From assembly GCA_945860915.1 (NCBI GenBank), contig CAMARR010000008.1, positions 62,001-126,000 of the forward strand: DNA of 64,000 nt, read 5' to 3'. Position numbers and translations under genes: made by a program. The DNA comes from Candidatus Kuenenia stuttgartensis (GTDB lineage Bacteria > Planctomycetota > GCA-002687715 > CAIWVZ01). Below, piece by piece: positions 47,023 through 49,456 of this stretch (within the stretch, counting starts at the first letter, position 1; each line of letters opens with the position of its first letter). The notes beneath the pieces were generated by a model. It was not told where the DNA came from. It worked only from the letters and a program-made list of their open reading frames with translations, and did not search any database.

Positions 47023-48033
47023 ATGACTCTGTCACGCTTGGTTCGCGGTGTAGGCATGGTGGTGGTCCTCACGACTGCTGCGCTTGCCCAACTCAAAGTT
47101 GGTGAACTGGTCCCCGACAAGACATTCGCCCAGATGCTCAATTCGGATGGGCGTAAGTCCATGGCGGAGCTTAAGGGCAGTCCGGTCCTCATCGACTGGT
47201 GGGGAAATCATTGAGGCCCGTGTCTCGGCGGGAGCGTGCCTCACGCCATCAAGATGCAGGACAAGTACGGCAAGGATGGATTCGTCGCGTTGTTGCTTGA
47301 GTCTCAGGGGCTCGATGCCTCGGATATCCCCGGCTTCATGTGGAAGCGGTTTCCAACCAACAAGACGTGGTTGAGTACGTCGGGAGATGCTCCGTTCCAG
47401 ATGACTGGAGGCGGGTTGCCTCACGCGGCACTCGTTGGTGTCGATGGGACGCTTCTTTGGGAGGGAAATCCGAATGGAGCCCCGAAGAAGATCGAAGAGA
47501 TGGTTGAAGCTGAGTTGAAGAAGTCGAAGTCGGGATGGGGTAAGGGCGCGATCGCCAAGAAGGCTCGCGGACTCCTCTACGGAAAAAATGCGTTTGTCGA
47601 CGCGGCGAAGGTGGTCGCCGATGCTTTAGCCAATGCCAAGGACGACGAAAAGGAAGACCTTGAAGCAGTTGCCCGCGAGATAGAACTCCGGCGCGAGGCG
47701 TTCAAGAAGGCACCAAAGGTTCTTTCAGAGGACGCTCGCTACCTCGAGGGCGTCAAGGCTGCTGAGAATTACGCCAAGTGGGTCAAGGGCAATCCCGAAT
47801 GGGAGAATGAGGCCAACGCGATTGTGTTGGATTTCCAACGGCCAGAGATCGTGAAGGAATTGGATCTCGAGAAGGGCCTCAAGAAGATCTTGGCGTCCGC
47901 AGGCGATAAGGCCCCGACGGCCGACCTCGCGAAGTCACTACGTACGTTCGCCAAGAAAAATGATGGTTCTCGCATGGCTGCACGTGCCACCTTGTTGGCT
48001 GCAGCAGCTGAGTTCGATCCCAACAAGAAGTGA
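47023..48033 (+). CDS. Candidate selenoprotein: secreted thioredoxin/TlpA-like protein with UGPC
   Basis: A single reading frame from the ATG at 47023 runs to 48033 apart from a TGA at 47212-47214. Reading this TGA as selenocysteine gives 336 residues with a signal peptide (LVRGVGMVVVLTTAALAQ), a TlpA-like thioredoxin fold, and a Lys-rich helical tail (about 170-336). The TGA (residue 64) falls exactly at the first cysteine of the redox motif: VLIDWWGNH-U-GPC aligns position by position with the usual VLVxFWAxWCGPC. The cis-Pro region GGLPHAALVGVDG is intact downstream. A stem-loop that fits the bacterial SECIS pattern follows the TGA. TGA is an ordinary stop in neighbouring genes. The alternative is a nonsense mutation or a sequencing error (TGT/TGC to TGA). 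Conventional gene callers would split it at 47214 and 47236. Sec-insertion genes (selA, selB, selC, selD) are not in the window. Confidence 0.75.
47212..47214 (+). other. In-frame TGA, proposed selenocysteine codon
   Basis: The TGA replaces the codon for the first cysteine of a CGPC thioredoxin motif; the second cysteine (TGT at 47221-47223) is present. Reading continues in the same frame for 273 further codons with recognisable thioredoxin-fold features. Confidence 0.7.
47227..47247 (+). promoter_or_regulatory. Candidate bacterial SECIS-like stem-loop
   Basis: GGCG (47227-47230) pairs with CGCC (47244-47247), a G-A mismatch follows, and GAG (47232-47234) pairs with CTC (47240-47242) around the loop CGTGC (47235-47239). 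The loop begins 21 bases after the TGA, within the distance usual for bacterial SECIS elements, and contains a G followed by U. The stem is short, so the evidence is suggestive rather than decisive. Confidence 0.5.
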
Positions 48034-48043
48034 GCGTTAGATC

Positions 48044-49456
48044 ATGGCTACGCGTTTACTACGCGTGCCTCGACTGGCTGCGGCCGTTGCCCTCGTGGCT
48101 GCGGCCGTTTGCCTTTCAGGCTACGCACAGACGGCTAAGTCAGATTCAGTCTCGAGTTACTTGCCGATATCCCGTCGCATCGCGATGGCGGCTTTACTCG
48201 GAAACGAGGCGCTGTCCAACCTTCATGTGCTCTGTCACTCGGTTGGGCATCGACTCTCCGGTTCGCCAGGAGAAGCGAAGGCGATCCCATGGGCGGTCGA
48301 TGCGCTCAAGCGAGCAGGTTGTGATCGCGTCACGACCGAGCCGGTGGCGGTTCCGACGTGGTCGCGGGGGCATACTTCAGTCAAACTACTGACGCCTGTC
48401 ATTGAGGACCTGCCCGCTCTCGCGTTGGGGGGCTCGGTTGGAACGACCAGCGGCCCCATCGAAGCCGATGTTGTTGTTGCGCGGTCGTTCAATGACTTGG
48501 AGCGCTTAGGCAAGCTTGGCATTCAAGGGAAGATCGTCGTCTACGATGTTCCGTGGGATGGGTACGGGAAAACCGTTCGCTTTCGATCTGATGGGGCGAG
48601 TCGGGCGGCTGAGTACGGTGCGGTGGCTGTGCTGACCCGATCTGCGGGTTTTGGCGGCACTCGGACTCCGCATACAGGTGCCATGACCTACGCCGACGGA
48701 GTCGCCAAGATCCCAGCGGCAGCCCTCGCGTTCGAGGATGCGGGTCGCATCGGCAAGTACGCATCCGCCGGGGTGGCGGTGCGAATGCGGATTGACCTCG
48801 GATGTCGAACGTCTGCAGATTCAATGGGCGCAAACGTCATCGGCGATTATTTCGGATCTGACCGACCCGACGAGATTGTTCTCCTTGGAGCTCACCTTGA
48901 CTCGTGGGATGTCGGGCACGGGGCCCAGGATGACGGCGGTGGGGTTGTATCGGTTATCGAAGCAGTGGCTGTTCTCAAGAGACTGGGTCTTCGGCCTCGT
49001 CGGACCATCCGCGTTGTGCTTTTCGCCAACGAAGAGAATGGCCTACGAGGCGCGCGTGCCTACGCAGCCGCTCATGCACCGACGATGAAATTGCACGTTG
49101 CGGCGATCGAGAACGATGGCGGTGTTGAGAAGCCCGTCGGGTTCGGAATGAATTTTCCGAAAGGCACCCTCGCGACCGACCCCCGTGCGGTGGCGTTCCG
49201 CGACATCGTAGGGCTGCTAGAGCCGCTCGGGGCCGCGAATGCCGCGATGGAGGGCGGAGGCGCGGATATCGGCCAACTAGGGCCCTATGGGGTCCCTTTG
49301 ATGTCCATCAACACGGTGGGAAGCCGGTACTTCGAGTGGCATCACACCGAATTGGATACATTCGATAAGATCGTTCCAAGCGAGCTCGATAAGCATGTCG
49401 CGGTTCATTCAATCATGGCATTCGTGCTCGCTGACATGACCACGACGCTGCGCTGA
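48044..49456 (+). CDS. M28-family zinc aminopeptidase
   Basis: The 470-residue protein has a signal peptide (LAAAVALVAAAVCLSGYAQ), an inserted protease-associated-type domain (about 130-255), and the M28 core with GAHLDSWDVGHGAQDDGGG (metal His and bridging Asp), FANEENGLRGA (catalytic Glu and metal Glu), ENDGG (metal Asp), and a final HHTELDTFDKI (metal His). All five ligands are in place. It likely trims peptides outside the cytoplasm or in the periplasm. It is 10 bases after the candidate selenoprotein gene and probably cotranscribed with it. A small inverted repeat overlaps its stop. Confidence 0.9.
   Translation: MATRLLRVPRLAAAVALVAAAVCLSGYAQTAKSDSVSSYLPISRRIAMAALLGNEALSNLHVLCHSVGHRLSGSPGEAKAIPWAVDALKRAGCDRVTTEPVAVPTWSRGHTSVKLLTPVIEDLPALALGGSVGTTSGPIEADVVVARSFNDLERLGKLGIQGKIVVYDVPWDGYGKTVRFRSDGASRAAEYGAVAVLTRSAGFGGTRTPHTGAMTYADGVAKIPAAALAFEDAGRIGKYASAGVAVRMRIDLGCRTSADSMGANVIGDYFGSDRPDEIVLLGAHLDSWDVGHGAQDDGGGVVSVIEAVAVLKRLGLRPRRTIRVVLFANEENGLRGARAYAAAHAPTMKLHVAAIENDGGVEKPVGFGMNFPKGTLATDPRAVAFRDIVGLLEPLGAANAAMEGGGADIGQLGPYGVPLMSINTVGSRYFEWHHTELDTFDKIVPSELDKHVAVHSIMAFVLADMTTTLR

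Follow-up and report, generated by a model that had tools for sequence, protein, structure and literature searches.

Does an in-frame TGA at the catalytic position of a thioredoxin-like gene end a protein, or does it encode one of its active-site residues? The question is raised by the frame 47023-48033 of the window, by which we mean the whole stretch of 64,000 nucleotides analysed here (positions 62001-126000 of contig C8 in a draft genome of 2.37 Mb, phylum Planctomycetota). A TGA at 47212-47214 is the sole interruption of this frame, as an earlier note on this DNA had observed and as our translation confirms. When TGA is read as selenocysteine (U), the frame yields a single protein of 336 residues in which U64 sits in the motif WWGNHUGPC, and a normal TGA at 48031-48033 is the terminal stop (Table 1).

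We consider it highly likely that the gene specifies an exported Sec selenoprotein of the TlpA/ResA-like type, one that most likely reduces disulfides and docks by a helical tail. As judged from the sequence, the in-frame TGA very probably encodes the active-site selenocysteine. The data supporting this reading are the conserved UGA, the Sec machinery, the coding constraint downstream, the enrichment of a hairpin together with UGA and the similarity of the domain to known ones.

Table 1. Coordinates of the gene, its proposed elements and the adjoining gene in the window
Feature	Position	Strand	Remarks
TlpA-like gene, very probable selenoprotein	47023..48033	+	336 aa, U64; an orthologue in each of two same-genus genomes, 82% identity
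Probable Sec-type signal peptide	47023..47088	+	Residues 1-22, ALA before Q23; read by eye
Thioredoxin (TlpA/ResA-like) domain, about residues 24-164	47092..47514	+	Profile A1 positions 9-153 against ResA 4nmu
UGA codon for probable selenocysteine 64	47212..47214	+	Conserved in relatives, aligned with Cys of homologues
Cys67, putative resolving residue of UGPC	47221..47223	+	Column nearly invariant in A1
Twelve change-free codons (68-79)	47224..47259	+	Window against both same-genus orthologues
Proposed SECIS hairpin GGCG-G-GAG (CGUGC) CUC-A-CGCC	47227..47247	+	Identical in three genus genomes
Pro133 of GLPHAAL, presumed cis-proline position	47419..47421	+	Nearly invariant column, 21-row alignment
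C-terminal tail, predicted helical, residues 165-336	47515..48030	+	Profile A3
M28 peptidase gene	48044..49456	+	Starts 10 nt past the stop; Pfam PF04389, E 1.1e-26

Taken alone, the open frame is weak evidence, because 21 long frames in the window can be joined in the same way over one stop (11 TGA, 6 TAG and 4 TAA; a single stop with at least 50 codons before it and at least 150 after); the force of the argument comes from homology. That geometry lends something to the view of the gene as a pseudogene, its TGA due to nonsense mutation or faulty sequencing, as does the fact that a lone stop may be erroneous when the genome is a draft. Yet the TGA is found at the identical codon in both same-genus genomes (G001 and G002; the G001 gene is split over two contigs). 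Past the UGA, dN is 0.103 and dS 1.674 in the comparison with G002 (272 codons), which indicates that selection acts on the protein encoded there. With TGA also standing at the same column in many distant relatives, we regard a pseudogene as extremely improbable.

The comparison with these relatives was made on two sets of Planctomycetota loci. The first set comprises 76 segments from the 70 loci fetched; 43 of them have TGA at the aligned codon, 16 TGC, 11 TGT and 6 something else. These segments represent 73 distinct genes, three of them read twice via overlapping loci (L030/L052 twice, L020/L054 once), and matches starting past query residue 60, such as the tail-only match of L054, were left out. 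The second set of 72 loci, with the best-scoring gene counted for each (for L111 a neighbouring copy), gives 50 TGA, 15 TGC, 2 TGT and 5 other codons. Its ratio of TGA to Cys is not a frequency, because 12 loci were taken automatically and 60 were hand-picked by the stops column (40 with TGA, 20 without a stop). Being homologous to the first, this set is a fresh sample and not one of independent lineages.

Altogether, the 148 aligned codons comprise 93 TGA, 44 Cys and 11 others, with neither TAA nor TAG at this position in either set. The placement of the TGA at the first catalytic cysteine of a TlpA-like motif, proposed in the earlier note, is thus borne out by homologues with Cys opposite U. 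The random nonsense that the same note had considered as a contrary sign is not what the relatives display, since they keep TGA and have no TAA or TAG there.

The same alignment bears on a reading as two genes, a secreted peptide of 63 residues followed by a protein restarting at GTG 47236. A mechanical list of open reading frames (at least 80 aa) does yield this 3′ part, its sole entry in the frame being 47236-48033 with a GTG start and 265 aa. However, a restart at that GTG would lose U64-GPC and the preceding strand, both sides of the UGA align to ResA as one domain, and the Cys homologues run without a stop at the UGA position. Two separate genes are accordingly very improbable.

For the single selenoprotein that we favour, the genome holds the required equipment. 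The earlier note had proposed a search for selA, selB, selD and tRNA-Sec, and all four are present. ARAGORN concurs on the tRNA-Sec (73.5 bits), which is separated by 79 bases from the match to selA (482.7 bits). The contig of the window also carries selB (363 bits), and selD scores 355 bits. Passages of PMC4807772 report Sec machinery and selenoproteins in planctomycetes. Two further genomes with UGA members (G005 and G040) have SelB above the cut-off and no tRNA-Sec above the cut-off; their tRNA-Sec is probably missing from the draft assemblies. Since 45 of 59 genomes have tRNA-Sec anyway, the link between UGA genes and the tRNA across genomes is not used as evidence. We also observed that SelD itself carries an in-frame UGA near its N-terminus, in GGGUASK (L050, C2:245018-245938 of the same genome).

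SelB and tRNA-Sec would decode the UGA as Sec under the direction of an in-frame hairpin. A candidate begins 12 nt past the UGA, with its loop CGUGC at 20 nt; the energy is -8.1 kcal/mol for the 21-mer with a 7-bp inner stem and -14.5 for the extended form of 15 bp. The region is unusually quiet in the comparison with G002: codons 61-80 have a pS of 0.243, the minimum among 17 stretches of 20 codons (the next is 0.324), and pS over all codons past the UGA is 0.669. As an observation apart, the GTG (47236-47238) that starts the listed 3′ ORF falls inside the apical loop of the proposed SECIS.

A bacterial SECIS model is given in passages of PMC13188914 (loop of 3-9 nt, G in loop position 1-2, spacing 16-37 nt, 4-16 bp, MFE -7.5 or lower), and the window hairpin lies within every constraint stated there. 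In this family the published model alone is not specific: it accepts 65 of 91 UGA genes and 4 of 10 other genes, and also 14 of 43 Cys genes. With the addition of GU within loop positions 1-3, the counts become 54/91 UGA, 0/43 Cys and 1/10 other. Taken singly, the window hairpin is unremarkable: the 51 nt that begin at the UGA, folded as a single sequence, give no signal (z 0.21), and 15 of 100 synonymous shuffles match it. The signal comes only from family comparison.

The rule used for that comparison was not the first. An initial hairpin rule, which accepted any G in loop positions 1-2, was dropped for its poor separation of the classes; its mean z goes in the wrong direction (-0.89 for 40 UGA versus -1.59 for 26 Cys genes) and its median in the right one (-1.08 versus -0.23). 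An initial count of GU loops in the first set (21/40 UGA versus 0/26 Cys) is not independent, because the GU rule was chosen after inspecting those loops.

The final GU-loop rule was fixed before the second set was fetched. On that set it is satisfied by 33 of 49 UGA, 1 of 17 Cys and 0 of 5 other genes (p 9e-6), and p is 7e-8 against synonymous shuffles; on the first set it finds 30/41 UGA and 1/26 Cys. The initial count in the first set (21/40 versus 0/26) and the counts in the second refer to distinct 60-nt stretches only, and those for the published model, for the final rule on the first set and for both sets pooled refer to the 144 rows of a tree of the family. Pooled in this way, the hairpin is present in 63/91 UGA, 2/43 Cys and 1/10 other genes. 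Once shared branches of the tree are taken into account, the link between UGA and hairpin amounts to 8 independent pairs with a median p of 0.06 (on average 5.2 agree, 0.0 oppose and 2.8 are equal). The GU-loop hairpin is missing in 28 of the 91 UGA genes, including two paralogues of other architecture on contig C6 of the same genome.

This enrichment bears on whether the UGA could be read as Cys or Trp, or passed by unspecific read-through, with no part for selenium. The same open frame would be expected then. What tells against such decoding is the hairpin's preference for UGA over Cys genes, the full Sec machinery of the genome and the use of TGA as a stop: it terminates 29 of the 44 ORFs of at least 200 codons in the window (picked without much overlap), in keeping with the earlier note, which had called TGA an ordinary stop in neighbouring genes. 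We therefore hold decoding without selenium to be most unlikely, and insertion of selenocysteine would remain the best account of the codon.

The RNA element also seems to constrain a few residues past the active site. In both sets, the loop GU is most often located on a Val codon, or spans the junction ahead of a Leu codon, immediately before a conserved PH; Val (or Leu with the preceding base) would be favoured at this site because the GU lies there. Among 40 UGA genes, the residue before PH is Val in 18 and Leu in 8, with a PH-type motif not found in 7. Among 26 Cys genes, it is Val in only 1, Ile in 11, Met in 4 and Leu in 4, with the motif not found in 6. Eight UGA rows have one extra residue after UxxC; in seven of them (L017, L018, L020, L023, L131, L134 and L158) the loop lies at 20-21 nt and not at 16-18, a shift that keeps GU and Val codon in register, and L129 differs. 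Such a constraint is directly testable.

We next turn to the protein. By eye, the N-termini of the window protein and of both orthologues look like signal peptides, which suggests that the protein would be exported. The thioredoxin fold is supported by profile: against solved structures, the family profile matches ResA (4nmu, E 7e-34) and TlpA (1jfu, E 1.4e-15), and the window protein alone matches 28db_A (E 1.6e-12) and 4nmu (E 5e-4). Both the U64-GPC67 motif and P133 are present. We take P133 to be the cis-Pro of the thioredoxin fold; its column is nearly invariant in the 21-row alignment, and the earlier note had likewise described the cis-Pro region as intact.

In such a domain Sec64 would attack and Cys67 would resolve. 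The protein would most likely serve to reduce extracytoplasmic disulfides or oxidised thiols, and electrons may reach it through a membrane conduit of the DsbD type; the same genome has a DsbD-type membrane domain (87.9 bits). A selenoprotein whose role is instead that of oxidase, isomerase, peroxidase or selenium-dependent chaperone is unlikely in our estimate, though well worth keeping in mind. Family members also match Pfam AhpC-TSA (16 of 21, best E 5.5e-27) and glutathione peroxidase (7 of 21, best E 1.1e-7), and related genes keep the tail while losing the active site. Set against this, UGPC is closer to CGPC, the reducing motif of thioredoxin, than to the CPHC motif of DsbA, and ResA and TlpA, both reductases, are among the best matches of known structure.

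In the gene neighbourhood, genes for an MrfA-like helicase and an RNase H-like protein lie upstream; downstream, the M28 peptidase is followed by a ferredoxin. The G002 record (L047) shows the same gene order, and in all three genus members the M28 peptidase adjoins the gene. In nine wider contexts (L181-L189), tblastn at E 1e-6 finds no match to the peptidase. As a neighbour within the genus only, the peptidase is not named as substrate. A consensus scan found no promoter-like sites, and five terminator-like sites against 1.6 expected, which we leave uninterpreted. Plasmid searches gave no DNA matches and one distant TlpA. Among named records, close relatives of the gene are found in the uncultured planctomycete LaPlata_bin-2350 and the Planctomycetota bacterium DEBay_Sum019D.

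Behind the thioredoxin domain trails a tail of about 170 residues, which may bind a partner or substrate. The structure matches of the family profile that are listed (60 of 224) all fall inside profile positions 8-158 of 311, so the tail is uncovered by them, and residues 165-336 have no Pfam match at E 0.001. The tail is predicted to be helical from its sequence and from a low-confidence AlphaFold2 model built with three sequences; at a mean pLDDT of 45.7, the structure as such is too poor to rely on.

The tail profile is present in 44 of 119 Planctomycetota genomes. For a subset of the tail-profile rows, 31 loci with 38 tail-bearing genes, the heads were read: 25 are UxxC, 4 are CxxC and 9 are other. 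By eye, five of these nine are thioredoxin-like without the first catalytic residue, two resemble an alpha/beta hydrolase and two are cut by a contig end. In L210 and L213 the same tail follows the hydrolase-looking domain, so the tail is not confined to thioredoxins. On this sequence comparison, the helical tail appears as a common Planctomycetota module and not as a peculiarity of the window gene. The earlier note had proposed a secreted selenoprotein with a long helical tail, a combination not known to have been described; the selenoprotein is supported, and the tail, with its presence in those 44 genomes, is not unique. In the article passages searched, we found no description of such a tail on a UxxC thioredoxin.

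How does the protein compare with known systems? Predicted selenoproteins with UxxC are reported in passages of PMC13188914 for the Redoxin family (PF08534) and a thiol-disulfide isomerase-like group (cd02966). Like the window protein, they combine a thioredoxin-type domain with Sec as the first residue of UxxC; those passages do not mention a helical tail, and the likeness is taken from their description. Against Pfam Redoxin the window protein scores 17.8 bits, below the cut-off of 26.6.

With ResA and TlpA (NF002854, NF047696) it shares the fold, the position of the motif and the cis-Pro, but Sec replaces the first Cys and a long C-terminal tail is added. It is not ResA or TlpA proper, scoring 20.3 of 170 bits for NF002854 and 16.7 of 230 for NF047696. 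The C-terminus of NF041382 (VPGUxxT type 1 (seleno)protein; positions 188-347) resembles the tail in 4 of 21 members, and in 4 of the 7 proteins of a smaller comparison (L024, E 4.5e-19; L030, 7e-15; L029, 5.3e-14; L037, 3e-8). All family scores are nonetheless far below its 350-bit cut-off, and the head of the window family is UGPC, not VPGUxxT; the window protein itself lacks the VPGUxxT motif and reaches 13.7 bits (E 0.028) over the tail only. NF041054 (WAxxUGC_long ResA-like) shares the ResA-like domain and is matched by 10 of 21 members (best E 2.9e-12), but its motif differs and the window protein has no match to it at E up to 1.

Passages of PMC1794560 describe the conversion of Cys to Sec, mostly in thiol-based redox families, with UxxC among the motifs. 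Because UxxC selenoproteins of similar fold are catalogued in the cited passages of PMC13188914, the kind is already known; our finding is one branch of a large selenoprotein family and no new principle. Gene finders that read UGA as stop would drop the signal peptide and the active site from this protein and from numerous relatives, so that exported redox enzymes of an environmental phylum are probably mis-annotated, and the large Planctomycetota family is probably under-annotated.

Next, we investigated the evolution of the family. On a quick, unrooted tree of 144 domains (91 UGA, 43 Cys and 10 other), no fewer than 14 switches between Sec and Cys, in either direction, are required. The window protein falls in a clade of 15 rows (support 95), five of which lack the active-site residue (L021, L025, L074, L176 and the second gene of L020). 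Four of these five group together (support 97) and are joined to the UGA member L020 (support 85). Since several relatives have lost the active site, redox activity does not account for everything in this clade.

We consider it about evenly balanced whether these genes form one Planctomycetota-wide family of exported thioredoxins, in which heads with Sec, with Cys or without catalytic function share the tail, and in which Sec, Cys and inactive residues have replaced one another repeatedly at a single position, sometimes between neighbouring copies. If true, one fold would show Sec enzymes turning into non-catalytic binding proteins. It would also show a SECIS shaping protein, with Val or Leu favoured before PH and the Cys versions mostly having Ile, Met or Leu. 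The paired Sec and Cys versions, some of them adjacent on a contig, make it possible to ask what selenium adds in an exported thioredoxin.

Paralogues are found both in the same genome and beyond it. L063 (C11:20214-21173 of the same genome) is a second TlpA-like gene that contains a UGA; its tail is similar, and its SECIS-type hairpin lies farther downstream (loop AGUU at 34 nt, -11.5); L053, the same-genus copy of L063, has a compensatory stem change in this hairpin. At L072 (C6:32560 and C6:33816, same genome), two UGA thioredoxin genes are adjacent; in both, the helical part precedes the thioredoxin domain, and the GU-loop hairpin was not found in them. Adjacent paralogues of which one is UGA and the other Cys or dead occur at L181, L052, L188, G076:C95, G110:C23, G125:C4 and G140:C3, and copies stand in tandem, four in G076:C95 and three in G110:C23.
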